In this document: positions 173 through 27,124 of the stretch, in pieces
Position numbering within the stretch: position 1 is the stretch's first letter
Layout of the letters: every line of letters begins with the position of its first letter
Assembly (NCBI GenBank): GCA_001804805.1
Contig: MHBH01000087.1
Span: forward strand, 1 to 64,000
From: Lentisphaerae bacterium GWF2_49_21
GTDB lineage: Bacteria > Verrucomicrobiota > Lentisphaeria > Victivallales > GWF2-50-93
Length of the DNA: 64,000 nt
Direction: 5' to 3'
The notes under the pieces: generated by a model
Database searches by the model: none
The model's input: only the letters and a program-made list of their open reading frames with translations
Told to the model about the DNA's origin: nothing
Position numbers and translations under genes: made by a program

Positions 173-3100
173 TTATTCCTTCCGGAAAAGCTCTATGTTG
201 TCCCGGATGAATTTCATTTTGCCGATATGATAGCCGGTGTCATAGATTTTCTTATAGATGTCGCCCAGGCGTTCGAGCGGGATACCGGATTCATCCATGC
301 CGATCCTGTTATCCAAGAGGCGCAGCCGTTCGGCGCCGATAAGAGTAATGTACTGCTCATACTGGCGATCGTCCAGGCGGACCAGGTTGTCCTTCCATGT
401 GATCTTGCGGTCCGGGACCGAGGGAATAGCGTCGGCGTCCATGGTCCTGGCAAAGGTCTCGTAGACTTTCCGCATGGCCGGATCCGTCGGGATCTGGCTG
501 CTCTTGGAAATGTCAAGCAGCTGGTATATCCAGGGATTCGCGCTGTCGGGAGTGGACTTTATCGGGCGCCCGAAGAGATCGCGGCGGACCGGGAGATCCT
601 CATACATGAAGAGTTTGGACTTTGCGATATTGATAAATGACTGCTGGACCGTCTCGGCCTTCGGGTCCACCATGTAGGGCATACGGGCCCGGTTGATCGC
701 GGCCAGGGTGTTCGGCAGCACTACCGAGGATACTGTCTTGAAATAGGTCCGGAGCCAGGCGTCGTACTTCTCTTCACTGATTGCCGACAAGAGATCATTC
801 GTACCTTTCAGCATGGCCATATTCAGCGTAGCGGAGGCGATTTCCGGGAAGAAGGTCGCGGATCCTCCCATGTACTCGTACAACTTGTAATTCTCCTTCA
901 TCTCTTTCTTTGCTCGTTTGTCGCGGTTGGCTACGATCGAGGCGATTATGCCGAAGAATCCAAGGCGGTTGTAGTTTATAATCTCGTCGGTCTCCCTCCA
1001 GGCGGGGTCCTCGCCGGCCAGAAGGCGGCGGAGCCCGGAAAGGTTCAGGGAATAAGGAGCGAAGGTCGAATATTCAAGGCTGCGTTTCTTGTCGTCGTCG
1101 TCGGGTCCTCCTGAAAGCAGGCCATTTTTAAGCAGCTGGTAGCAGGCAAGGAGTATCATCTGGCCGGTGATCGCCTTCCCCAGGGATATAAGGGCTTCGC
1201 GTTTCTTTCCCTTTGTGGCGAAGAAGATTGAACGGCCCAGGGAGAATTCCGGAGACGCAAACTGGAGGCCTTCCCATGCGAGATTCGCGGGAGTCTTGAT
1301 ATAGGGGAGGACGCCGCGGGCTGCGAAGTTCGCATATCCGCCGATCCATGGGATAGATTTTATCTGCGTGAAAATATTATAGAAGATCCCGGCTGCCCTG
1401 TTGTCTTCCTGGAAGACTGCAACCTCGGCCTCTTTCTCGGCCTGGCGGACTGCGTCGAGCGGCGGCAGCTCCATGAACCTGGTAAGCGCTTCCCCTTTGA
1501 GGCCGCGGATCCGGGCCTGTTCGAAGAGGGACCGTCGGAGATTGAATTCCTTGAACGGCAGATCGCCGAAGGCCAGGAGGCGCAACATCGGCTCTGCCGG
1601 AGCGCCCAGGACTGATTCAATAAGTTTCTTTGCGCGGTCCATGACTGGGATATTCCCGGCCTCGTTGACCGGCATGTTCTCGCCGGTGAACGCCTGGACC
1701 AAGGAACGAATCGGGGCAAAGCCGCGGATCTGTTCGCCGAGGACCAGGTTGTCCAGGTTGCCGGTGAACATCTGGCGGGTGGCCCTTGCGAATCCCGTAG
1801 CTGCTCCCCTGGCACCGGCAGCGGTACCATGGAACGGATTAAGGACTGTGCGCGATTTGCCTCTTATGAGCGAATCGAGCATATCGAGCGAAGCGCCCAG
1901 GGATTGTGAAGAGTATTGGAGCGGTACATACATCGTGTTGCCGACAATGTTCGCTATCTGCGAGGACGGCGCCAGGAGATTGCCCTGGATCGTGGTCGTG
2001 AGAATGTCCGGGACCGACTTGGGTGTTAGGTCGCGGACCATCTTCATAGTGTCGATATGTTTCAGCTCGGCCTCCTTGCGGAGGGCGTCCACCTGGCGGG
2101 CGTTGGTCTCGTTGAAACTGTTGATTAGGACCTGTTCGGCATTGCGGACAGCGTCGCGGGCTGCGAAGCTCGCAATGAGCTTGTCTGTGAGGATCTTCCT
2201 CTGAGGCTCGGTCAAGTAGCGGCCCTGCTTGTTCAGCTGCTTCTCCAGGATTCCCAGGATAAGGCGCGGATCGCGGCGCTTGAGTTCGCCGAACTGGCGG
2301 AGCAATTGTCCTACGGTGGTCCCGGTCTTCGCGAGTTTCTCAACTACATTGGCCGTGTCTTCTCCCCTGGATTCCTTGCGCTGCATGAGTTCAAGGCCCG
2401 CGAGAACGGAGAAATTATCCTGGCTGTCAACCGGGATACCGTCCTGGACGGAGTCGAGCTTCTCCAGGAGCTGAATGTCGGTGAGGCCTGCGAGCTGGGA
2501 GTTGATCTGATCGTATGACTGTGGCTGATAGTACAGCTCGGGGTTGTCCTTCATGCGCTGCTGCTTGACCGGATCCGGCTCCTGGGCTGCGAGCTTCGCG
2601 GCAAACTGGCGCATCTTGGCGTATTTATCTTCGTTTGCGGGGCGGGTGGCGTATTGAGTATCCGCGTCAACTTTTCCAGTTTCCGGGCTTGATTTTTCAA
2701 TCAGATCGTTTATGTTTATGTAGGCCGTTGGGATAGGGGATGATTTGACGGTTTCTCCGCCAGCATCCGTCGCCCCTGCGGTCTTTTCTATTTCCAGGGT
2801 ATCCAGATCGTAATGACCAATTCCTCTTTTACTGTCGAGATATTCCTTGGCCTTCATTGTCACCCGGTATATTTTCCCTTCAACTTCCGCAGCGCCGACA
2901 AGGACGTGCATTTTCCGTATTGAATGTTTATCCTCGGGTTTCCTGGGATCATAACTATCAACATGGATTGAATTTTCAAGAAGCTGGGGCAATACCTGGT
3001 GAACCGCTCCTTTTATTGAAGTGTATTCCCTGAATATGGAATGCCGGAGGGAATTACCTGACAGGTTTATCATAGCCTTCAGGCTTGGATTATATTTTTC

Positions 3101-6100
3101 AATCCCGGCATATTTCTTATATGCCTCCCATGCTTGTTTGGCGCTTTCGGGCAATGCGTCTGTGACTTTGTTTATCGGGATATTTTCAGAAGAATATTGT
3201 GGCGCGGTCTCTGGAGCTGCGAGATTCGCAAGGTTGGACTTGAAGGCCTGGCCGGACTGGACGTAGTTGAATATCTCTTCCTTGGTCCAGGAGAGGTTGG
3301 GCTTGAATATCCTGGCAAAGCGTTTCATTGCGAAAAGGATCCGGTTGAATATCGCCTTGAGTCCGGCATGTATTCCTTCAGCGCCGTTGAGCCAGTCGCG
3401 GTAGGCGTTGGCCTCGGCTTCTTCGGATCCGAGAGTCTTGTCGAGGAACTTCTGCTGGGCCGGGAGTATCTCGGCAAGGTCCTTTACTCCATGCCATACC
3501 TCATGGCCGATGTCGTCCTGGCTGTACTTGCCGGTGACGAGCTGCATTGTGTTGGCCTTGGTGAGCCAGGCGGCGGGGACCATGTCGCGAGCCGGATTGA
3601 ATTCGCGGCCATAGCCTTTCTTGAAGGCTGCGCGGTCCACCTGGATTTCCTCCGTAAGCTGGACATGGAAAGTATTGCCATTCGGGAAAGTGACCTTTGC
3701 GCCTCCTGGGAATAATTCGGCTGTGGATCCCTTCGGCAGCGCATTGCGGAGCTGGGAAAGTAGTTTCATCTGCTGGTGTTTACTCTCGGGAGTATGGTCC
3801 CGGACCGTGTACTTGTCTTCGCTGCTGTCCTTCTCGTCTTCCTCTTCCTTCTCCAGGGTGACGGCGTCGTCTCCGGATTTGTTCAATCCAAGGGCCTCAT
3901 TGATCTCGTCGTAGCGTTTCATGGCCTTGTCGAGGGCGTCCTGCTTTTCAAACTTGGGCTCGGGTTCGAGATTGACCTTGTCGAGTTCGCGGCGGTATGC
4001 CTCCCCTTCAGTTTTGGCGGATTCAATATCCTTGCTGATCCCTGCGAAATGAGAAGCGATTGCGCGGGACGGGGAAGTCAATACATCCTTGTCTTCTCCA
4101 TACCAATTATCCAGGAGATTACGTGTTGAGAACGTGCGGCCTTCTCCGAGGTTGATACTAAGATAGGATCTTATTTTGTCTTTCTTGTCGCCTCCAATAT
4201 CAATTCTATTGGAAACTTCAAATCCCGCATAGGTGCCGATCTTTCCATCCTTCGCGGCGTTGGCCAGGAGATACTTGTCGGCCTGGTCGGCCTCCAGAGC
4301 CTTGTTGTCATTGGTGACAAACAGGAATTTCTCCGGTTTGTTCTTCAAGTATCTGTCATTGATCCTGGTCCATACTTCCGAGCGTGTTTTTGCATAACCA
4401 ATACTCGTATGCAGGTGTTGTTTGCGATACTGCATGTCGCTGGCCTCGGACACCTTGGAGCGCTGTTCTGATTCCAGGCGATCGATATCCTTCTCCAGTT
4501 TTATCTTTTCAATGATCATGGGGTTGCCGGTGGCGATCGCCTTGATCTCTTCGGCTGTGAGAGAAGTGGAGGCGTCGCCTTCAAGTGTGCGCTGGTCGAG
4601 CTGGGCCGTCATTACCGATTCAATTGCCTCGGCCTTGCGCTGGACGGTCTGCCAGCGGTAGACGTCGAAGGATTCCTCGGTGACATAAACGAATACATCT
4701 ACGTTCTTATGGAGATTGCCGGGGCGGAGTATGCGCCCGTTGCGCTGCTCGAATTCGGCAGGCTTCCACATTACATCTATATGGTGCAGGCCAGCGAGGC
4801 GCGTCTGCACGTTGGTGCCTTCGCCCATGCGCGGGGTATTGCCGATCAGGATCCGGACCTGGCCATTGTTCACCTTGTCGAAGAGCGCTTGTTTCTGCTC
4901 GTCGTTGTTTGCGTCGTGGATGAAGGCTATTTCCTTGGCGGGTATTCCCCTGTCCATGAGATTGCGCTTGATTGCGGCGTATACGTCGAACATGGAGCTG
5001 TCCTGGATCTCTCCTTCAACTTCCGTAAACTTCCCTTTCGGGACGCCGAGATCGCAGAATACAAGCTGGGTGCCGTTCTCGTATTCCTTGCCGTCGCGGC
5101 CTATGAATTTCCTTGTGTTCTTCCATATATCATAGACCTTCTCGGTCACTACCGCTATTTTGCCGTTGGGGTTCTCGGCATTGCCGGGCTCGATAAGGCG
5201 CTCGTCGAGGGCGGCCTTGGCGCCGTCGCTTGTGATCTTGAGCATGTTGTCGGTACGGGGATCAATGGCGCCGGTCTTAATGTCCGCTGCTCTGCCGTCA
5301 AGTTCATTGATATAGTTCTTGAGCCAGGGAGTCGCCTTGATTGGTACAACCTGTATTTTCCCCTGGTTGAGTTCGGGCCTGGGGATCTTCAATTCGGCGC
5401 TGGTCTTCACGTCGGTAAACTTATGGAACATCTGGAGAAGTTCGCCCATATTGGTGTACCTGGAGAATCTTTCCTTGGCCTCGTATCCCTTGCCGCTGGG
5501 TTTCATTTCAATTTCTGAGACGACGTCGCCGAAGGTGTTGGCCCAGTCGTCGAAGGCGAAGACGCCGCGGCGCTTGAGGGCCTCGGGTTCCATGTAGCGC
5601 TGCATGATATACATTTCCGAGATTGAATTGGAGATAGGCGTCCCGGTGGCGAAGACTACGCCGCGCTTGCCTCCATGAAGGGAGTTGACATAGCGCGTCT
5701 TCATTTCCATGTTCATGGCCTTTTGGGAAGTGGCCTGTGTCATTCCCGGAACGCGGGCGCGGTTGGTGACGATTTGCAATCCCTTGAAATTATGTGCTTC
5801 GTCAAGCAGGAGATAGTCGATCCCGAGTTCCTCGAAGGTCAATACTTTTTCCTTCTTCCCGTCGGCTGCCAGGCGTGTAAGCCTGGTCTGGAGATTCTCC
5901 TTGCGTTTTTCCAGCTGCTTGATAATCCTGTTGTCCTTCCTGGCGCCGTCGCCCTGGTCGGCGCGGGCCCGCATGACTGCGGCCTCGATGTCGTTGATCT
6001 GCTCCTGGATATAGTTGCGGGTGTATTCCTCGCTCATTCCAAACATGCCGAATGAGGAATGGGTGACAATGACCATGTCGTAATTGCCCGCTGCGATCCT

Positions 6101-9100
6101 CGCATAAAACTCCCGGCGCTTGTCTCCGGCCATCTGGTCCTTGTATCCAATGAGGATATTGGCCTGGGGGAAGGCGTCCTGGACGTCGCGGGCCCAGTCT
6201 TCGAGCTTGTGGTTGGGGACGACGATAATAGGTTTCTTTGCGATTCCCAGGCGCTTGGCCTCCATTGCGATCGCGGCCATTTCAAGGGTCTTGCCGGATC
6301 CTACGGCGTGTGCCAGGAGAAGATTCCCTCCCTGGATGCCGCGGTATATGGCGTTCTTCTGATATTCGCGGCCTGGAGCGTCGAGGCGTTCCTGCCATAT
6401 CTTCGCCAGTCCCTTTATAAAGTATCTGGAGGCGTCCCATACACGCTTGGCCATGTCGTTGAACTGGTCGTTGTAGATCTGGACCAGGCGGTCCCGGCGC
6501 TCGGGGTTCTCATAGATCCAGTTGTTGAAGTCTTCTTTAAGCTCCTGGGCTTTTATCCTGGCGCGTTCGGTGGCCTTGCGGTCTATGACGTTCTTCTTTT
6601 CTATGCTGTCGTAGCCGGATACTGTTATCTGCCTGCCGTTCATGATCGCCTCAAGAAGATCATGCGCGGGATAGTCCGGGGTGCCGTACTTCTGCGTGGC
6701 GTGTACGCCGGTGGTAACATAACTGCCGCTGCCGTCGTTGGTCACGGACCAGCCGCCGGTAAGATCGTTATGGATCACTGTCCACATTTTTGGTTGGCTG
6801 TCCGTGATCCTGGCGAGATAATCCTTGTAGGTGTCGGTCGGGATCCAGGGGGATCCTGCGCGGGGGCTGATTTGATTGTGTTTAAGAGGGACCGGCTGGA
6901 CCTTCTTCAGTTCTTCGACGTTCTTCTGATATTTGGGATTGAGCGCCGCTGCTGCTTCGGCTGCTGCGAGCTTCGCCTTGACGTAGCCGGAAAGATATTC
7001 GGAGTTCGTCTCCAGCTGATCCGTCTCGGGGTTATGGAATACTTCCTTGTTGTCGAGAAGCGCCTGGCTTACTTCGTCCTGTGTCCTGCCTGTGAGCCTG
7101 GCCATGTACTCAAGATCTATGCGGCCTTTCTCACCGAGGGACAGATAGAGGGCGTCGGATGGCGAGTCGGCCTTGGTGACTTCTTCCGGCATGGACATAA
7201 CGCGCTGGGAGAAGATCGGCATTTTATCGGCCTTGCCTGTCTCCTTGTTGTATACTTCTATGGCTTTTACAAGTGTACGGTCCGTGTCCACATTCAGATA
7301 TCGGAGATTGTCTTTTTTGCTGATCGGTCCGTGTTTCTTTACGAAGCTGTCATACGCGGCGTTGAGTTTCTTCTGCGCGATCGCCAGGATCGTATCGTCG
7401 TTGCTGTGGCGCTGGACGTTGAGGACTTCGCGTACAGCGGTGCGGACCGCGATATAACTATGGATCATCGGGACGGCGGAGGCCGGGATCTCGGTAGGTT
7501 CGAGCATACCGTCCTTCTTCTGCATGACCTTGCCGTCGGACACTATGATATTGCCTTCCTTCATTTCGGAAGGGGCGAATATCTTTTCCGGCTGGGTCTC
7601 CTGTTTCTGTGTCTTCTCTCGGGCCTCGAAGATGTTGGCGGGGAGAAGTTTCACGGCTGCCGCGATCTTGTCTTCGAGCGGTCCGCCGGTGTCTTCGACA
7701 GTCATTTCATTTCCGCCGTACATGGTACTTTCCTTGGTGAGCCTGCCCAGGATCATTTCCGGATGGTCCTCGAAGTATTTATTGATCTTGACCATCTGCG
7801 CCTGGTATTCGCTGGGCTTCTTTCTCAAGGTATGCTCGACGATCTCGGACCAGGCGGAGTTGTCCGGGGTCTGGCCGGGCATGAGTTTCTTGATATAGAT
7901 TATATCGGCTACAACTTCGGTGCCCGCTGTCTTCTTGAAGGCGATATTAGGCAGCCGGATAGCGCCTATGAACTGGCCTCCATGCTGGGTAAGGAATACG
8001 CGGAGCTTGTCGTTTACCTTGTCCATAGTTCCTTTGCTCGTCACCATTGCCATCACTCCACCGGGGCGGAGCTTGTCCAGGGCCTTGGCGAAGAAGTAAT
8101 CATGGATATTGAACTTGTATTTGTCGTATTTCGGATCCGCGAGCTGGTAGTCGCCGAATGGCACATTGCTTGTGATGGTGTCGTAGTAGTTGTCCGGTAG
8201 CGCGGTCTTCTCGAATCCCTGGATGAATGACTGGGCCTGGGGATAGAGGGCCTTCAGGATCTTGCCGGTGGTCGAGTCAATTTCGATCGCGGTCCAGTCA
8301 ACCGGAGTTGATTCCGGCTGCAAGCCTATGAAGTTGCCAATGCCTGCGGAAGTCTCCAGGGCGCGGCCTCCGTCGAATCCAAAATGTTTGAGGGCGTTCC
8401 AGATACCATTCTGGATCACGGTCTTGGAAGTATAATGGGCGTTGAGGGTGCTGCGGCGGGCCTCGTCGAATTCGTCATCTGTCATATTCTCGCGGAGCTT
8501 GAGGAAGCTCGGCCAGGCCTTTTTCCTGGTTGCTTCCTTTAAATCGCTTTCGGCCCAGCTCGGAAGGGTGCCTTCCTTCTTCTGCTTGTACCGATCGTAG
8601 GCGGTGTCAAAGTCGCGGTCGAATGACTGGACCAGGGCGCCCCATCCTGTATACTGCGCCATGAGGGATTTTTCCTCGGGAGTGGCCGGGCGGTTCTCGG
8701 TTTCGAGTGTTTTCAGGAGTTCGAGGATCTTGATATTGGTGGCGACGCTGGGGTGTATATCGTCGAGTTCGGTGGTGATCCGGAAGTTTACGCCTCGGTC
8801 TGATCCGTCTGGCTGGGCTGTTCGCCGAGATTTGGCCGGTCCTCTTCGTCCGGCAGCCTGAACACTTCCCTGGCTGTCCTCCAGGCTATGTCCGACGGCT
8901 GCGTCTCTTCCGCTTCCAGGAATACTTCCATCGTCCTGTCCGCCAGCTCGTTGGCTGTCTTGTCCAAGGTCCCGGCCTTCACCAGCTGCTTGAACATTGT
9001 CGGCCTGTGTTCCTGGATGTGTTTCTTGATTACCGGTATCAGCTGGTACTTGGGAAGGAAGCGGGAGCCGTCCGTCACTTGCTGGCCGCGGAGCGCGTCT

Positions 9101-12100
9101 TCGATTTCCGGGTTTAGTGTTGTCTGTGGCATTGCTTTCTTCCTTTCCTTCTGGTTTACCATAGTTGACTGCGGTTGATTTGTCAAGGCCCGGAAGCGAT
9201 AATTCCAGCTCTTTCTGTTCGGGTGCCAGGATACCGTCTATGTCCTGGCCTTCCAGGGCGTCGAGGCTGTCCATGCCGGACTTGGTCTCCCTGGATACCT
9301 GGGGATCCATGCGGACCGCTGCATACCACTGGGCAAGGTAGGGTTTCATCCTGGTGAAGAGATCCGCCGGGACTTGGGCGGCCAGCTGCTTGACCATGTC
9401 GGCGAAGCTGCGGGCGCCTCCCTCTACATAGAAGCCTACAACCTTTATGCCGTTTATGGTGATATTGGGATCCGTGATGTCATGGAGGGACTTCATAAGG
9501 AAGTCGAGAGCGGCGTCCTTGTCGGCCTGGGTGAATAGCTTGTTGGCGGAGCCGAACTGGGCAGGCCCAGTTTTACTTGGGGGAGTCGCTTCCGCGGCGT
9601 CTGGTGACTTGCTCTGCTCGGGGGAGACGAGATCGGGGTAATCCTTGAGGACTTCGGCGGGGACGGGCTTCCCTTCGCGCATGGCCGTGGAAACTCTTGT
9701 ACGATGTAATTCATAATCAGCCAATGCCTTGTCTCTTCTACCTTCAAGGCTCTTGTCGGTTTCCGCCGCGTAGGCAAGTTGATTGGCATAGGTCTTTAAT
9801 TCCACCTTCGTCATTTGCCAGGGTTCTCTGGCGGGCGGAGCTTCCGCTTCCGCGGCGTCGGGTGACTTGCTCTGCTCGGGGGCGGGAGGGGGCTGCTGGA
9901 CCGGGGCGGGCGCTGCTTCTTCGGGCTTCGCTTGGGGTGCGGGTTCCTCTGTGCCTTCTGTCACCCAGCCGGGAAGTTCGTCGGAGGCTGCTGCTTGCAC
10001 GATCGAGCCTTTGTCCATATAGATCTTGCCTTGGCCGCGGGGGAGTGTGCGACGTTCGCCGTCTTCGTATTCCAGGATAGTGTCCTTGCGGGTGTTGGCA
10101 ATGATCGTGCCTTTGCGTCCATCCTCGGTAAAGGTGGTGCCTACGCGGAGCTTGGTCGGGTTTATGATCTCGTACTTCTTGGCATGGGCTTCTTCTTCCT
10201 GGCGGATATCTTCGGCTTCGGTGTCCTTCTCGGTCCGGATCTCTTCGTCCAGGATGAAGGCCAGGGATTTGTCATTTCCCTTGCGGTTAGTTTTTTTGTA
10301 GTGGGAAAGGACTTCCAGGAGGACGTCGGTATGGTTCATATCGAGATTATCAGCCATGACTGCAATATTTTCATTGTTTATCAATTCACCGGCGGCTTCG
10401 TCCAAAAAGCGTCCGCTTGTGAAATTGCCCTTCTTGTCGCGGGGGCCCCATAGCCATTTCGGGACAGATTCCTTGAATTCGGTTTCCTGGCCGGAGATGG
10501 GCCGGAGTGTGCCGATCTCGTTTACAACGTAACTAAGTTCGGGGTGTTTGTTGAGCTGGCTTTCCTGGGCGACATTGAGCTTGAAGGATTTGCGGATCGG
10601 CTCGGCTGGCCCGGCTTCCGGGACAAGGGACTCCATAGGCGCCGCGGTTGCTGCCGGAGCCTGGCTGGTCTCGCCGCGGAAAGCGGCGACGTCGGCGTCG
10701 ATCTGTTCGTCGGGGGTGTTGTTAATATAGTCGTTGAACATCATCTTTTTTGAATATGCGACATTCGCAGCGTCGATGATATTCTGCGCGTTCTCGGGAT
10801 CCTGCTGTGAAAGCATTTCGGGATTTACACCTACGGCCTGGAGGATCTCCATGGTGTTGGCGCCGAGGGCGGGAGCTTGCCCGGCGTCGCTGGGAAGCTC
10901 TGCCGCGGCTGGCGGGACGCCAGGAATAGGCTGGAGCTGGGGTGTTGGAGCGGGCCCGGCGTCGCTGGGAAGCTCTGCCGCGGCTGGCGGGACGCCAGGG
11001 ATTGGCTGGAGGTCCTTGGATTTGCGGGTCCGGTTGCCGACATAGCTGGCCGCGTGTCCTAATCCTCCAACTACTCCGAAGGCTGCGCCTTCCGTCAAGA
11101 GCTGTTCGCCGCTGGGGATCGAGGCTTTGAGCCTGGAGAATATATCCTTTGGATTTTCGGCGCCGAAGTCGTCTACATTGAATGTGGCCCGGAGGATATC
11201 TCCCAGGCGTTCCTCCCCCATTTCATTGAGGGCGCCGAAGAATTTCCCCTTGTCGGCAAGTACGGATGTAAAATCCTGCAAACCTTTCCCTGGATGGAGC
11301 TTCATCCAATATTCACCGAGTTTTTCAGTGATCGCATTTGTGACGCCTGACACTCCGGGGATCTTTCCCAAGGTGTTTTTTGTAAGCCAGGTGGCGCCAT
11401 GGCCGATCGCTCCGCCGGTCATTTCGGAAAATACTTCTATATAGGTATCTCCGATTCCTCTAAGCAAAGCGGTCTGTGAGTCGTCGCCCGGGTTCAAGAT
11501 CTGGAGATTGCCTTCCGCGTCGAAATTGATATTCTTCGGGAGTTCGCGGCGGGCTGCTGATTCCTCTATCATCCCGGCAAAGGCCGGTAGCCTGGTTGCG
11601 GCGTTGGCTGTGCCTGCTGCCAGGCGGGTCCCGCCTTTGATCACCATGTTCTTCAATCCTTCTTCGCCGTATTTCTCCAGGATCCTTACACCTATGTTCC
11701 TTGCGGCGCCGGATCCTATGGATCCCATTCCGCCGGTGGCCATGAATTCAAGAAGGTATTTAGGCATGATCGAGAGGATATCGGTTGTCTTGGAAAGGAA
11801 GCCTCCGCGCTTGTCGTATTCGTCGAGCGTATTGAAGTAATCCTCAATGATCCTGCGGTCGTAGTCCTTCGCCATATTTCCCTGGTCGTCTTCCTTGTAG
11901 GTATTGGACTGGAGGCGTTCGACGGTCTCCCGGAGTTTGTCAAGATTATTGGCGCCTTGGAATGAGAAAGGCAGCATTTCCAGTGGGTCCTTGCGTCCCA
12001 AAGTTTCAATTATCCCCATCTTGCCGGTGTCCTGCGTGGCTGTCGGGACGAATCCGGGAAGATCCTTTACGGCCTGGTACTGCTTATACATGCTTGATTC

Positions 12101-12490
12101 AAAAATATCCTTGATCGGGACTTCGTCGCGGGATATTCCCCTGTCCTTCGCTATGGCGTCTGCTATCTTCGCAATCGTGATATTCGCCGGGCCTGACGGC
12201 TTGAAGGTGTGCATGCCGTTGAAAGTCATGTCCTGGTCCTTCACGTCGGCAAAAGTCTTCTCCTTGGCCTTGGGAAGATCAAAGGAAAATTCCTTTGCAA
12301 AGAATCCATCCATGCTTTTCGTGAAGTCGTTATCGTCGAAGCTGTCGGCCTGGTTGACGCTCATTTCGTTCTTTACGTCGTTGCGCCAGTTCCAGAATAC
12401 TTTCTTCCTGTCTTCCAGGGACATTCCCTGGTAGTCTTGCCCGGCGGTGAGTTCGGACCAGGTAGGGACGGCGGCTTGTATGTCGGACAT
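173..12490 (-). CDS. Giant 4105-aa polyvalent protein: LPD-like regions, adenine methyltransferase, SF2 helicase, zincin
   Basis: Last and largest gene of the virion operon, about a quarter of the prophage. Residues 1-480 are a hydrophobic LPD-like region. A Pro/Ala linker with a 55-bp DNA repeat follows near 490-540, then a small domain near 1000-1090 (FYVEGGARSFADM). The methyltransferase has motif I SAGIGNFIG near 1380 and SNVPFG, a variant of NPPF, near 1440. The helicase has GSGKT near 2065, DEAH near 2226 and QRNGRILRPG near 2580. A zincin motif HEVWH lies at 2996-3000, followed by an LPD3-like (barnase/EndoU/RelE-type) region near 3110-3260 and an LPD38-like tail near 3480-4100. The core resembles phage P1 DarB, which is injected with DNA and protects it from type I restriction. 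Co-injection here is inferred from gene position and family. Residues 1120-1235 look like frame-shadow linker over a nested gene. Confidence 0.93.
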   Translation of the reverse strand: MSDIQAAVPTWSELTAGQDYQGMSLEDRKKVFWNWRNDVKNEMSVNQADSFDDNDFTKSMDGFFAKEFSFDLPKAKEKTFADVKDQDMTFNGMHTFKPSGPANITIAKIADAIAKDRGISRDEVPIKDIFESSMYKQYQAVKDLPGFVPTATQDTGKMGIIETLGRKDPLEMLPFSFQGANNLDKLRETVERLQSNTYKEDDQGNMAKDYDRRIIEDYFNTLDEYDKRGGFLSKTTDILSIMPKYLLEFMATGGMGSIGSGAARNIGVRILEKYGEEGLKNMVIKGGTRLAAGTANAATRLPAFAGMIEESAARRELPKNINFDAEGNLQILNPGDDSQTALLRGIGDTYIEVFSEMTGGAIGHGATWLTKNTLGKIPGVSGVTNAITEKLGEYWMKLHPGKGLQDFTSVLADKGKFFGALNEMGEERLGDILRATFNVDDFGAENPKDIFSRLKASIPSGEQLLTEGAAFGVVGGLGHAASYVGNRTRKSKDLQPIPGVPPAAAELPSDAGPAPTPQLQPIPGVPPAAAELPSDAGQAPALGANTMEILQAVGVNPEMLSQQDPENAQNIIDAANVAYSKKMMFNDYINNTPDEQIDADVAAFRGETSQAPAATAAPMESLVPEAGPAEPIRKSFKLNVAQESQLNKHPELSYVVNEIGTLRPISGQETEFKESVPKWLWGPRDKKGNFTSGRFLDEAAGELINNENIAVMADNLDMNHTDVLLEVLSHYKKTNRKGNDKSLAFILDEEIRTEKDTEAEDIRQEEEAHAKKYEIINPTKLRVGTTFTEDGRKGTIIANTRKDTILEYEDGERRTLPRGQGKIYMDKGSIVQAAASDELPGWVTEGTEEPAPQAKPEEAAPAPVQQPPPAPEQSKSPDAAEAEAPPAREPWQMTKVELKTYANQLAYAAETDKSLEGRRDKALADYELHRTRVSTAMREGKPVPAEVLKDYPDLVSPEQSKSPDAAEATPPSKTGPAQFGSANKLFTQADKDAALDFLMKSLHDITDPNITINGIKVVGFYVEGGARSFADMVKQLAAQVPADLFTRMKPYLAQWYAAVRMDPQVSRETKSGMDSLDALEGQDIDGILAPEQKELELSLPGLDKSTAVNYGKPEGKEESNATDNTKPGNRRRAPRPASDGRLPLPSQVPADTGNQETHPGTQADNVQAAGEGRDLGQDSQRAGGQDDGSIPGSGRDAAVGHSLEDSQGSVQAAGRRGPAKSRRTAQPDGSDRGVNFRITTELDDIHPSVATNIKILELLKTLETENRPATPEEKSLMAQYTGWGALVQSFDRDFDTAYDRYKQKKEGTLPSWAESDLKEATRKKAWPSFLKLRENMTDDEFDEARRSTLNAHYTSKTVIQNGIWNALKHFGFDGGRALETSAGIGNFIGLQPESTPVDWTAIEIDSTTGKILKALYPQAQSFIQGFEKTALPDNYYDTITSNVPFGDYQLADPKYDKYKFNIHDYFFAKALDKLRPGGVMAMVTSKGTMDKVNDKLRVFLTQHGGQFIGAIRLPNIAFKKTAGTEVVADIIYIKKLMPGQTPDNSAWSEIVEHTLRKKPSEYQAQMVKINKYFEDHPEMILGRLTKESTMYGGNEMTVEDTGGPLEDKIAAAVKLLPANIFEAREKTQKQETQPEKIFAPSEMKEGNIIVSDGKVMQKKDGMLEPTEIPASAVPMIHSYIAVRTAVREVLNVQRHSNDDTILAIAQKKLNAAYDSFVKKHGPISKKDNLRYLNVDTDRTLVKAIEVYNKETGKADKMPIFSQRVMSMPEEVTKADSPSDALYLSLGEKGRIDLEYMARLTGRTQDEVSQALLDNKEVFHNPETDQLETNSEYLSGYVKAKLAAAEAAAALNPKYQKNVEELKKVQPVPLKHNQISPRAGSPWIPTDTYKDYLARITDSQPKMWTVIHNDLTGGWSVTNDGSGSYVTTGVHATQKYGTPDYPAHDLLEAIMNGRQITVSGYDSIEKKNVIDRKATERARIKAQELKEDFNNWIYENPERRDRLVQIYNDQFNDMAKRVWDASRYFIKGLAKIWQERLDAPGREYQKNAIYRGIQGGNLLLAHAVGSGKTLEMAAIAMEAKRLGIAKKPIIVVPNHKLEDWARDVQDAFPQANILIGYKDQMAGDKRREFYARIAAGNYDMVIVTHSSFGMFGMSEEYTRNYIQEQINDIEAAVMRARADQGDGARKDNRIIKQLEKRKENLQTRLTRLAADGKKEKVLTFEELGIDYLLLDEAHNFKGLQIVTNRARVPGMTQATSQKAMNMEMKTRYVNSLHGGKRGVVFATGTPISNSISEMYIMQRYMEPEALKRRGVFAFDDWANTFGDVVSEIEMKPSGKGYEAKERFSRYTNMGELLQMFHKFTDVKTSAELKIPRPELNQGKIQVVPIKATPWLKNYINELDGRAADIKTGAIDPRTDNMLKITSDGAKAALDERLIEPGNAENPNGKIAVVTEKVYDIWKNTRKFIGRDGKEYENGTQLVFCDLGVPKGKFTEVEGEIQDSSMFDVYAAIKRNLMDRGIPAKEIAFIHDANNDEQKQALFDKVNNGQVRILIGNTPRMGEGTNVQTRLAGLHHIDVMWKPAEFEQRNGRILRPGNLHKNVDVFVYVTEESFDVYRWQTVQRKAEAIESVMTAQLDQRTLEGDASTSLTAEEIKAIATGNPMIIEKIKLEKDIDRLESEQRSKVSEASDMQYRKQHLHTSIGYAKTRSEVWTRINDRYLKNKPEKFLFVTNDNKALEADQADKYLLANAAKDGKIGTYAGFEVSNRIDIGGDKKDKIRSYLSINLGEGRTFSTRNLLDNWYGEDKDVLTSPSRAIASHFAGISKDIESAKTEGEAYRRELDKVNLEPEPKFEKQDALDKAMKRYDEINEALGLNKSGDDAVTLEKEEEDEKDSSEDKYTVRDHTPESKHQQMKLLSQLRNALPKGSTAELFPGGAKVTFPNGNTFHVQLTEEIQVDRAAFKKGYGREFNPARDMVPAAWLTKANTMQLVTGKYSQDDIGHEVWHGVKDLAEILPAQQKFLDKTLGSEEAEANAYRDWLNGAEGIHAGLKAIFNRILFAMKRFARIFKPNLSWTKEEIFNYVQSGQAFKSNLANLAAPETAPQYSSENIPINKVTDALPESAKQAWEAYKKYAGIEKYNPSLKAMINLSGNSLRHSIFREYTSIKGAVHQVLPQLLENSIHVDSYDPRKPEDKHSIRKMHVLVGAAEVEGKIYRVTMKAKEYLDSKRGIGHYDLDTLEIEKTAGATDAGGETVKSSPIPTAYININDLIEKSSPETGKVDADTQYATRPANEDKYAKMRQFAAKLAAQEPDPVKQQRMKDNPELYYQPQSYDQINSQLAGLTDIQLLEKLDSVQDGIPVDSQDNFSVLAGLELMQRKESRGEDTANVVEKLAKTGTTVGQLLRQFGELKRRDPRLILGILEKQLNKQGRYLTEPQRKILTDKLIASFAARDAVRNAEQVLINSFNETNARQVDALRKEAELKHIDTMKMVRDLTPKSVPDILTTTIQGNLLAPSSQIANIVGNTMYVPLQYSSQSLGASLDMLDSLIRGKSRTVLNPFHGTAAGARGAATGFARATRQMFTGNLDNLVLGEQIRGFAPIRSLVQAFTGENMPVNEAGNIPVMDRAKKLIESVLGAPAEPMLRLLAFGDLPFKEFNLRRSLFEQARIRGLKGEALTRFMELPPLDAVRQAEKEAEVAVFQEDNRAAGIFYNIFTQIKSIPWIGGYANFAARGVLPYIKTPANLAWEGLQFASPEFSLGRSIFFATKGKKREALISLGKAITGQMILLACYQLLKNGLLSGGPDDDDKKRSLEYSTFAPYSLNLSGLRRLLAGEDPAWRETDEIINYNRLGFFGIIASIVANRDKRAKKEMKENYKLYEYMGGSATFFPEIASATLNMAMLKGTNDLLSAISEEKYDAWLRTYFKTVSSVVLPNTLAAINRARMPYMVDPKAETVQQSFINIAKSKLFMYEDLPVRRDLFGRPIKSTPDSANPWIYQLLDISKSSQIPTDPAMRKVYETFARTMDADAIPSVPDRKITWKDNLVRLDDRQYEQYITLIGAERLRLLDNRIGMDESGIPLERLGDIYKKIYDTGYHIGKMKFIRDNIELFRKE
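8788..9132 (-). CDS. Nested out-of-frame gene, 114-aa helical protein of unknown function
   Basis: Lies wholly inside the giant gene in another frame on the same strand. It has a good ribosome binding site (AAGGAAGAAAGCA before ATG). A longer open frame reaches 9186, but only the start at 9132 has the ribosome binding site. Its codons end mostly in G or C like real genes here, and the product looks folded and helical (for example RFLPKYQLIPVIKKH, then TANELADRTMEVFLEAEE, then AWRTAREVFRLPDEEDRP). The giant protein in the same stretch (residues about 1120-1235) is Gly/Gln/Ala/Arg-rich with no recognisable fold. The nested stop falls where the conserved methyltransferase begins. I do not recognise the family. 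It may be an ancestral separate gene over which two flanking genes were fused by read-through in another frame. Confidence 0.65.
   Translation of the reverse strand: MPQTTLNPEIEDALRGQQVTDGSRFLPKYQLIPVIKKHIQEHRPTMFKQLVKAGTLDKTANELADRTMEVFLEAEETQPSDIAWRTAREVFRLPDEEDRPNLGEQPSQTDQTEA
10881..11010. repeat. 55-bp direct repeat in the linker of the giant gene
   Basis: Near-identical 55-bp copies at 10881-10935 and 10956-11010 (period 75 bp) encode two copies of the Pro/Ala-rich string LQPIPGVPPAAAELPSDAG. They form a flexible linker between the N-terminal LPD-like region and the next domain, and probably arose by recent local duplication. Confidence 0.85.
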
Positions 12491-23618: not shown

Positions 23619-24263
23619 TCATCCCTTTATGGTTGATGCTGACGGCAATGCTGATATCGCCGTATAGTTGACTGTGAGGTATGGTCTGTAAATCGTACCC
23701 TTCTGCTGTGCCCAGAACGTCACATATTCATTTGTATTTGCAGTTGGGGTAGTTCCAGCTATGTCTCTGGAACTTCGCAAGCATAGTTTTGTCGTTCCTG
23801 TTTTATTTATCCAGAGCAGTCCATTGCTATTAAGAGGGATGTCGTTATATCCTGCCGTATTCCAGCCAGATGAAGTAAGCTGTCCACCATTGGAACTATA
23901 CTGACAATTGAGATAATTATAGTCTGCTAATGCAATAGTGTCTGCTGGATATGTCGGCTGTCCATTTTGAATTGCTATGTTAAAATCAGTATCTGATTGG
24001 TCGCGTTCACCGTACAAGCTTAATGTGGCACTGTTAATAATTGCATTATTTGTTATGGATGATGTATCAAAGAAAAGAAATGACCTATAGATAGAATACA
24101 ATGTAACAAGTTGCTCCTCAGCCTGTCCTACAATTAAAAAATTAGAAAACGATGCTATCTGCATAGTAGTTCCAGAAGTCGCAGTTCTACATGTAGCATA
24201 CGTCGCATTTGAATGAAATATCCCATCATTTGCCGATGTACCATATGCTGTTAATACGCTCAT
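23619..24263 (-). CDS. Tail adhesin paralogue A (DNRLRE/CBM96-like), 214 aa
   Basis: Tandem paralogue of the gene just downstream, with the same blocks in the same order (SFLFFDTSSITNNAIINSAT, then DFNIAIQNGQPTYPADT, then GYNDIPLNSNGLLWINKTGT, then LCLRSSRDIAGTTP). The start overlaps the stop of the 538-aa fibre gene by 4 bp, so it is probably translated with it. Two such genes behind a fibre suggest spare or alternative receptor-binding subunits. Base composition is AT-richer than in capsid genes. Confidence 0.68.
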   Translation of the reverse strand: MSVLTAYGTSANDGIFHSNATYATCRTATSGTTMQIASFSNFLIVGQAEEQLVTLYSIYRSFLFFDTSSITNNAIINSATLSLYGERDQSDTDFNIAIQNGQPTYPADTIALADYNYLNCQYSSNGGQLTSSGWNTAGYNDIPLNSNGLLWINKTGTTKLCLRSSRDIAGTTPTANTNEYVTFWAQQKGTIYRPYLTVNYTAISALPSASTIKG

Positions 24264-25876
24264 GATATCACCATGGTTAATGAACCTGTTGCACTTACGA
24301 CTTCAAATCCTACGTCTGCTACGACACAGACTATCTCAATCCTGTCATACCGATACGAACTGGCTATCGAACCGCCGACTCCGGCAACAGTTGTATAATC
24401 ACCAAATATCACGTACTGGCTTGCGTTCTGCGCCATCAGCCAGCCTCCTGCGCCATAACCTGTAATCGCCATGCGCTTGCCGACTGCACAAGAAGCCGGA
24501 AGGGTGAAGGTGATAAGTGTCCCACGGTTGGCGAAATACTCTTTGTCAATTGCCATTGCCTGAGTAGCGGCGGTGACTTCCGTCCATGCCAAGGCTCCTA
24601 CAAGTCCGCTATACTGGGAATTTGTCGCATTGTCGCCGGTGTTGGTGCCTGAAACAGTGGCGTCGTCGGAGACTGTCAAGGTCTTGCTGGTGGTGCCTCC
24701 GGCAATCGTAAAACCGGTGGCCGCTGCCGCAAGCGTGAGACCGTTGACACTTGTAGGCGCAATCACGCCCAGGGTGATCGTGATCGCCGGGGTGGTGGTG
24801 GCATTTGCGACGGTGCCGGAGATTCCATTTGCGGTGACTATGGAGACGGTTGTAACTGTGCCGGTGCCTGCCGGAGGGGCGCCGCTGATCCACACGCTTC
24901 CGTTGGATGTCATTATACTGCCAGCTGTACTTGGAGCTATGTCGCTCGGGACCGTAATGTTGCCGCTGCCGTCGAAAGCGATTCCATTGATAGTTTTTGT
25001 GGCTGCCAGTTTTGTGGCGGTCGCGGCATTTCCTGTGCATGAGGCGGAGGATCCGCTGGTGTCCTGGTTGAGCGTCGGGAAGTCCGAAGCAATCGCTATG
25101 CTTGGTACGCCGGTGCCTGTCGTGATCTTCAATATTCCGGTCGAGAGGCTGGACAGTAGGGTGCTGTTTATGCCAACTACAGTAATTGCGCCGGATCCTG
25201 TCGCGTCGCCGGTGTGTGTGGCGTTTGTCACAAGGCTGCTGTACTGGGTGTTTGTGGCGTTGTCTCCGGTGTTGGTCCCGGATACGGAAGCGTCGTCGGA
25301 GACGGTCAGCGTCTTGGACGTGGTGCCTCCGGCAATCGTAAAACCGGTGGCTGCCGCTGCAAGCGTAAGGCCATTGACGCTTGTAGGCGCAATTACGCCC
25401 AGGGTGAGCGTGATCGCCGGGGTGGTGGTGGCGGTGGCCACTGTGCCGGAAATGCCGTTGGCGGTAACAACGGATACTGTGGTAACTGTGCCGGAAAAGC
25501 CAGGGGCGGTGCTGATCCAGATCGTGCCGTTGGATGTCATTACATTTCCAGAAGTGCCAGGGGCAATATTGCTCGGGATAGTGATCGGGGCGGTGCCGTC
25601 GAAGTCTATGCCGTTGATCGCGCGGGCGGTGGCCAGCTTTGTGGCGGTGGCTGCGTTGCCGGTAATAGATCCGGTGATTGTGGCGGTGAAGGTCTTCGTA
25701 CCGGCAATAGTCTGATTTCCGGTAAGACGGACCGCGCTGGCATCTGAACTCGGGGTGGATTCAAGGATCTCAATCTTCTTCTCCATTTCCCTGATCTTGC
25801 GCCACATCGCCTGGACATGCTTGAGCTGGTCCTTCTCGGTAGGCGGCGTCGCGAGCAATGTTGTCTTGGAGGGCAT
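24260..25876 (-). CDS. Tail fibre with two internal repeats, 538 aa
   Basis: An N-terminal coiled-coil anchor (residues 15-40, HVQAMWRKIREMEKKIEILE) is followed by typical fibre repeats (TGSITGNAATATKLA, MTSNGTIWIS). A block of about 125 residues (VTTVSVVTANGISGTV through TVSDDASVSGTNTGDNAT) occurs twice and is also clearly repeated in DNA (about 24600-24990 and 25215-25610). The C-terminus has no repeats (AMAIDKEYFANRGTLITFTL) and may be a receptor-binding or chaperone tip. No pectate-lyase-type active site is seen. Likely the main host-recognition fibre. Confidence 0.82.
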   Translation of the reverse strand: MPSKTTLLATPPTEKDQLKHVQAMWRKIREMEKKIEILESTPSSDASAVRLTGNQTIAGTKTFTATITGSITGNAATATKLATARAINGIDFDGTAPITIPSNIAPGTSGNVMTSNGTIWISTAPGFSGTVTTVSVVTANGISGTVATATTTPAITLTLGVIAPTSVNGLTLAAAATGFTIAGGTTSKTLTVSDDASVSGTNTGDNATNTQYSSLVTNATHTGDATGSGAITVVGINSTLLSSLSTGILKITTGTGVPSIAIASDFPTLNQDTSGSSASCTGNAATATKLAATKTINGIAFDGSGNITVPSDIAPSTAGSIMTSNGSVWISGAPPAGTGTVTTVSIVTANGISGTVANATTTPAITITLGVIAPTSVNGLTLAAAATGFTIAGGTTSKTLTVSDDATVSGTNTGDNATNSQYSGLVGALAWTEVTAATQAMAIDKEYFANRGTLITFTLPASCAVGKRMAITGYGAGGWLMAQNASQYVIFGDYTTVAGVGGSIASSYRYDRIEIVCVVADVGFEVVSATGSLTMVIS

Positions 25877-25882
25877 GGATAA

Positions 25883-27124
25883 TTAATCCCCTATCGTCGG
25901 AGTTCCCTCGTGCGCCACTGTCCAAAGCTGAACACCGTCCCACCTATATTTCTTATAGTCACCAAGGTTATTCAACACCTGAGAGACACCAGCAACTTGT
26001 CCATCTATTTTGATTGAACCTTCCGGATCAACAACAATGGAAGAGTTCACCAGTTCTAAAGCAGGAGGTGTAAAATTTACAGTTGTCCTATTTATAGTTC
26101 CCACGTTATATTTGAAGTCGTCTATGTAGCCCTGCAAGGCAGCAGCACCTAAATCAGTGCAATATCCGATAGAACTGTTTGTAGATACGCTGATATTACT
26201 AGTGTCCGCAATAGGTGTTCCTGTAATTACACCGTCTCGTGCGTAGTACACAACTCCAGATTTTCGATATAATTCCAAATGATACCATTGTCCGGGAGTA
26301 AAAGCGGCAGTGTCGGTAAATAATAGTGGGCTTGAAGATTCTATATATGCCTGAATATTATTCTGTTTGTGGATATAAAACATCAATCCAGTGGAATATG
26401 TATCACCAAGTTCGAAGATACAGGTATACTCGTTCTGTACGTCGAAATTTACCCATGTGCTAATACTGAAATCGCCGGTTCCCGGATTCATGACATTATT
26501 ATGTGTGACTACAAGATTATCTGCCGTTCCGTCAAAATAGGCACTTGCAGACCCATACTTCTTTGTAGCTGTCTTTGTTACAGTCTGGTTTCCTGCGGCT
26601 ACAGTCAGGGCATATTTTGACGAGTCAGTAAACACTGTTCCATCGTCAGCGCCATTTGCATGCAACATTAGAACTGTGTACCAATCAAATCCATAATTCA
26701 CGTTTGTATTTAGGACTTCCACAATGCTTCCATCTGCCCATAGTGTAGGGTCAATGGTTACAGTATACGCCTGATTAGCCGCCGTGTTCTGGTTGAAGGA
26801 GTTCGCCAGTACGGCTTGAGATAGCTGGTTAATGATGGTTGTGGAGGTGGTGCCTCCGGAAACCGCGGCCCAGCTGGCGTCTGTACCGTTGGTTGTAAGA
26901 TATTTGCCGTTATTGCCGGTCTGTGTCGGAAGGGATTCTCCGGCATGTTCTATGGCGTAGTTCTTAATGGCCGTCTGCATTGCCTGGACGTCGGCCTGGC
27001 GGGTAATATCGCCTTTTATGTCCCCCCAAAAAGTGCCGCGGATCACGTTCTCGCCGAAGGCGAAGGAAAGCGCGACAGTGAGGCCGACGAAAAGCGAGGC
27101 TAAAATTATATTCTTGGTTTTCAT
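25883..27124 (-). CDS. LamG-domain protein with an N-terminal signal peptide, 413 aa
   Basis: Residues 1-24 form a classical signal peptide (basic start MKTKN, hydrophobic core LASLFVGLTVALSF, Ala-Phe-Gly end). Residues about 150-360 form a LamG/concanavalin A-like jelly roll (NPGTGDFSISTWVNFD, then QWYHLELYRKSGVVYYARDG, then LQGYIDDFKYNVG), a sugar- or protein-binding fold. A secretion signal on a gene inside a virion operon is odd: either the protein is exported to the infected cell surface, or the segment was captured with a host gene. It ends 7 bp before the fibre gene. Confidence 0.78.
   Translation of the reverse strand: MKTKNIILASLFVGLTVALSFAFGENVIRGTFWGDIKGDITRQADVQAMQTAIKNYAIEHAGESLPTQTGNNGKYLTTNGTDASWAAVSGGTTSTTIINQLSQAVLANSFNQNTAANQAYTVTIDPTLWADGSIVEVLNTNVNYGFDWYTVLMLHANGADDGTVFTDSSKYALTVAAGNQTVTKTATKKYGSASAYFDGTADNLVVTHNNVMNPGTGDFSISTWVNFDVQNEYTCIFELGDTYSTGLMFYIHKQNNIQAYIESSSPLLFTDTAAFTPGQWYHLELYRKSGVVYYARDGVITGTPIADTSNISVSTNSSIGYCTDLGAAALQGYIDDFKYNVGTINRTTVNFTPPALELVNSSIVVDPEGSIKIDGQVAGVSQVLNNLGDYKKYRWDGVQLWTVAHEGTPTIGD

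Follow-up and report, generated by a model that had tools for sequence, protein, structure and literature searches.

Does a short reading frame that lies out of phase within a giant phage-like gene encode a protein of its own, or does it merely accompany the larger frame? The question is raised by the first 64,000 nt of contig MHBH01000087.1 of Lentisphaerae bacterium GWF2_49_21 (hereafter the window), where a frame of 114 codons is enclosed in a minus-strand gene for a polyvalent protein of 4105 amino acids (173..12490). The host gene falls in the DarB-like polyvalent/antirestriction group (PHROG 10089), to which phage P1 DarB and Bcep22-like gp75 belong, and shares with other DarB-like giants a methyltransferase, an SNF2 helicase and an LPD3 domain. 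The match to PHROG 10089 (‘DarB-like antirestriction’; residues 1126-2903, 1486 bits, E 0) spans the methyltransferase and the helicase, and Pfam detected SNF2/ResIII/helicase_C and LPD3. In order of translation on the minus strand, the N-terminal part (9133..12490) is followed by a linker of approximately residues 1120-1234 (8788..9132), an N6-adenine-type methyltransferase domain (7870..8785; Eco57I sub-threshold) and an SNF2-type helicase domain (approximately residues 2041-2600; 4690..6370; PF00176, PF04851 and PF00271). In a relative, production of the giant protein is documented: mass spectrometry of virions identified JC1 gp69 from 51 peptides (PMC9144972). Beyond the giant gene, genes at window positions 24260-27124 match tail fibre and baseplate-like families, which indicates that the window carries a phage-like element.

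A sequence-only reading of the window had described the short frame as an out-of-frame gene with its own ribosome binding site, and we found an ORF on the minus strand that starts with an ATG at 9132, ends with a TAA at 8790-8788 and is offset to the +1 frame of the giant ORF (12490..173), with a Shine–Dalgarno (SD)-like AGGA (9141..9144, minus strand) 8 nt before the ATG. A longer version starting from a TTG at 9186 (132 codons) lacks an SD and was set aside. Over the overlap, the nested frame had a codon log-odds score of 0.061 per codon, compared with -0.152 in the giant and -0.425 in the third frame; the 5-95% range for the window’s real genes is -0.08 to 0.34, which includes the nested value and agrees with the normal codon use that had been noted. 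The product had also been called foldable and helical, and an AlphaFold2 model built on an alignment of family members has a confident helical core, with helices at residues 28-42, 44-53, 56-75 and 80-91 and a block-mean pLDDT of at least 91 across residues 31-90. Over the same stretch the giant protein is, as described, a featureless linker, of low complexity, free of stops and rich in G/A/R/D/P/S/Q, and the nested stop does fall at the start of the conserved methyltransferase, approximately three residues ahead of the segment NFRITTEL. Downstream of the nested stop, the giant frame has no start codon before position 8662, which is already within the methyltransferase, so the conserved N terminus of this domain can be made only by reading across the overlap. 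The length of the nested ORF alone is unconvincing, because the giant gene holds four further alternative-frame ORFs of 97-156 codons, and we dropped length as evidence. The codon scores of all four are negative, and neither an SD nor a phage match was found for the longest.

The search that the sequence-only reading had proposed, of the 114-amino-acid protein against phage genomes (tblastn), found homologues in Erwinia phages PEp14, Stean and Pavtok (E 2e-4 to 5e-3), in all three cases within DarB-like genes and again +1 with respect to the annotated giant frame. With the PEp14 copy as the query, matches extended to phages of Klebsiella, Pseudomonas, Agrobacterium, Ochrobactrum, Vibrio, Sinorhizobium and Microcystis. 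The nested gene was not annotated separately in any of the DarB-like phage records examined. Close relatives of the window’s own copy were sought in 100 related genomes and in IMG/VR, and none was found; the best relatives are approximately 30% identical. We classed 96 homologous loci from phage records, IMG/VR and genome contigs, some phages being present in two collections, and found the gene +1-nested within a giant ORF in 88, in frame with the N-terminal part in two (both from PBC5) and in another arrangement in six. These loci contain 74 distinct overprinted sequences, and an SD of at least 4 nt lies ahead of the ATG in 71 of the 74, compared with 9-11% of background ATGs.

Some of these records need comment. 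In Pseudomonas phage Itty13 (L007), the giant region is annotated as three opposite-strand ORFs, and the plus-strand giant frame is open for approximately 4100 codons. In Sinorhizobium phage PBC5 (L011:10700-11000), the giant gene is broken by a deletion of 1 nt that its relatives lack. The deletion lies a short way upstream of the nested ATG and brings the N-terminal part of the giant gene into the nested frame; it could be either a mutation or a sequencing error. The identification of the nested family as an ‘endolysin’ (PHROG 938) is accounted for by PBC5 orf33, in which this deletion joins the N-terminal part to the nested gene, and was rejected; a BFVD match, Q8W6J4_2, was read in the same way, its identity with this case being presumed. 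JC1 has a weak match to PHROG 6126 (E 7e-4), which could hint at a structural role in the virion.

We also took a census in which 80 IMG/VR viral loci were picked by the methyltransferase domain alone and an SD-preceded ORF of at least 60 codons was sought within 900 nt upstream. A +1 ORF was present in 67 of the 80 loci and a +2 ORF in none, whereas control windows downstream, in the methyltransferase-helicase, gave 1-6 of approximately 79 loci per frame. Two or three of the 67 ORFs seem spurious (for example, L135), and many, those of JC1, BcepIL02 and USP_25 among them, are too divergent for tblastn yet similar to the family profile. At 900-1800 nt upstream of the methyltransferase match, SD-preceded +1 ORFs of at least 60 codons occurred in 20 of 71 loci (among L116-L195); these are partly the nested gene, which lies farther from the methyltransferase domain in some lineages. 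No nested ORF was found in the methyltransferase-helicases of alphaproteobacterial and actinobacterial plasmids, which indicates that a methyltransferase-helicase can work without the nested protein. The nested arrangement is, as judged from these comparisons, an old one rather than a local or recent fusion, common to most phage DarB-like genes sampled and to Firmicutes-type elements, which alters the picture given by the sequence-only reading.

The two reading frames differ in how strongly they are constrained. In the overlap, the third position of a nested codon is the first of a giant codon, and the giant frame has its wobble position at nested position 2. Across 26 independent close pairs, differences at nested positions 1, 2 and 3 numbered 243, 241 and 494, and position 3 exceeded position 2 in 25 of the 26 pairs (sign test, p 8e-7); given the relation of the frames, this means that the small frame dominates selection. 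Segments flanking the overlap had a normal giant-frame difference pattern. When synonymous codons of the nested gene were resampled in the 74 sequences, which share history and hence are non-independent but are uniform in direction, 261 giant-frame stops were expected and none was observed, and 5 of 74 sequences were predicted to be open in the giant frame compared with the 74 of 74 that are. A giant frame free of stops despite this expectation, together with differences biased to nested position 3, argues that both frames are maintained by selection. Identity was higher in the nested frame than in the giant frame in every divergence class, and nested and methyltransferase distances were correlated (Mantel r 0.82, 0/999 permutations). 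The nested ORF is far beyond chance by the homology, codon-position and census tests. With homologues in dozens of phages and selection that is strongest in the small frame rather than restricted to the large one, we infer with a probability of approximately 0.8 that the nested ORF is a translated, conserved overlapping gene.

The family shows a faint resemblance to TnpV (PF14198). The window protein scored 14.6 bits and the Erwinia phage copies 20.7-21.9 bits, below the 27-bit gathering cut-off, and the Pavtok copy had a sub-threshold Pfam E value of 1.8e-4. Profile–profile comparison of the phage-type family with TnpV (hhalign, with shared sequences removed) gave an E value of 7e-5 and a probability of 61-63%. 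The TnpV proteins of Tn4451-like and other Firmicutes elements are close in length to the nested protein, and both models have a predicted core of helix, helix and long helix, compared here by helix order. The two families differ at their C-terminal ends, with a YLFPPEE region in the phage type and EE..I...EL.Y in TnpV. Like the phage family, true TnpV is found +1-nested in open giant methyltransferase-helicase frames (L105, L108, L198, L202, L204 and L206), and the offset was +1 in nine of ten faecal records with both TnpV and a methyltransferase. A search for TnpV in the class of G193 added nothing. These comparisons suggest that the nested family may be a distant relative of TnpV. Structure searches returned no convincing solved structure for the family. 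A match to the structure of PG0816 (2apl; probability 0.98, E 0.74), which we take to be a DUF1896 member, was kept as a lead only and then dropped; the TnpV model did not match 2apl, and a search for the DUF1896 family in the organism’s own genome and in control genomes found nothing. In a Streptococcus suis element (L106:12061-12436), a TnpV gene that is split into two ORFs overlaps the end of an SNF2 gene. TnpV-carrying integrative elements have been reported to insert into snf2 (PMC9815147).

The sequence-only reading had explained the overlap as overprinting by fusion of a three-gene array. Its overprinting part is upheld by the conserved +1 homologues and the dual constraint; the fusion route remains plausible. 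An origin of this kind predicts both free-standing and 5'-overlapped copies of the small gene, and both were found. TnpV is free-standing at L203 and L205, and phage-type members are free-standing at L078, L080, L082 and L095; those at L078 and L080 are near integrase or mobilisation (Mob) genes, not methyltransferase-helicases. At L111 and L112 the small gene is overlapped solely by the 5' end of the methyltransferase gene, and at L099 by the 5' end of another large ORF. This series fits an order of events, itself deduced, in which the small gene would have been overlapped by a 5' extension and later enclosed by fusion. In Pseudidiomarina (L092:9971-10762), a standalone family copy runs on in frame into a hydrophobic region that resembles a membrane segment. 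Like known nested genes of viruses and bacteria, this locus has one stretch read in two frames that are both constrained (PMC8227390). In overprinting as usually described, a new frame emerges within a pre-existing gene (reviewed in PMC8227390), whereas at this locus standalone relatives and gene-like codon use belong to the inner frame and the outer is a low-complexity linker, which suggests that the outer reading came later. The best reading is that the frame of the small gene probably predates the giant linker that reads across it, or is at any rate under more constraint than this linker.

We weighed several other explanations for these patterns. One is that GC-rich linkers are open in the +1 frame as a matter of course, so that the ORF would be a chance or GC artefact and the family no more than low-complexity similarity. 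The same giant gene does contain alternative-frame ORFs of approximately 97-156 codons, but these fail the codon test, the pattern persists in loci of 39-50% GC, and the SD, the codon-position differences, the asymmetry between +1 and +2 in the census and the standalone copies all contradict this explanation, leaving its probability close to negligible. It is almost as hard to credit that the nested protein is a non-functional relic, kept since its destruction would break the giant linker. The protein has no known function, which would suit a relic, but it is the linker that is the weakly constrained frame, with the lower identity in every divergence class. A programmed ribosomal frameshift could also bring the nested frame to translation, giving the N-terminal part joined to the helical domain and ending before the methyltransferase, and in PBC5 the N-terminal frame does continue into the nested frame. 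However, the PBC5 case is a 1-nt deletion relative to its relatives in an old record, the SD and ATG are conserved, and in other copies a stop in the +1 frame is often found just 0-6 nt ahead of the nested ATG, which leaves almost no room for a frameshift; we consider this very unlikely.

A further alternative accepts the gene and concerns its role: the small protein would bind DNA or act in recombination in the manner of an excisionase (Xis/TnpV type), and its link to the giant gene would be no more than a common transcript. TnpV of Tn4451 has been postulated to act in excision, from its likeness to lambda Xis (PMC3158075), and both the distant TnpV similarity and the standalone copies near integrase and Mob genes (L078 and L080) would agree with such a role. 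But the function of TnpV is itself postulated, and the nested proteins, with a median pI of 5.2, are acidic and co-diverge with the methyltransferase. We regard an excisionase-like role as unlikely, though it deserves to be kept in mind.

For a translated overlapping gene, we propose that ribosomes would start at the internal SD and ATG inside the giant message and make an acidic helical protein of approximately 100 residues, while other ribosomes would read through in the host frame to make the full DarB-like protein. An old mobile-element gene would have been overprinted by the linker of the giant protein. The small protein may serve as an accessory or assembly partner of the methyltransferase-helicase that protects or processes the element’s DNA. 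The small gene lies directly upstream of the methyltransferase-helicase module in phages and farther upstream in Firmicutes-type genes, and a function with the methyltransferase-helicase is the one we favour because the two diverged together. The standalone copies near integrase and mobilisation genes rather than methyltransferase-helicases weaken this idea, and we put the partnership forward tentatively. It is possible, at a little less than an even chance, that a TnpV-like gene in the +1 frame of a giant methyltransferase-helicase gene forms a widespread, almost unannotated pair in tailed phages and conjugative-type elements of several phyla, with the disordered linker a by-product of reading an older gene and the small protein an obligate antirestriction partner.

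The paper on polyvalent proteins (Iyer et al. 2017) contains no description of the nested gene under overlap, frameshift, TnpV or linker. We found no account of this overlap in the open full-text literature, which excludes subscription titles such as the Bcep22 genome paper, and the novelty of the finding is limited accordingly. DarB-like giants are currently studied as single anti-restriction machines. If each giant gene makes a second, separately started protein, their mutants, virion proteomics and domain models would need to be re-read. If true, the finding would uncover a family that is absent from nearly all phage annotations, and an unusual, deeply conserved form of overprinting: the gene on the inside would be the old one, and the linker of the fused giant would be the new sequence.
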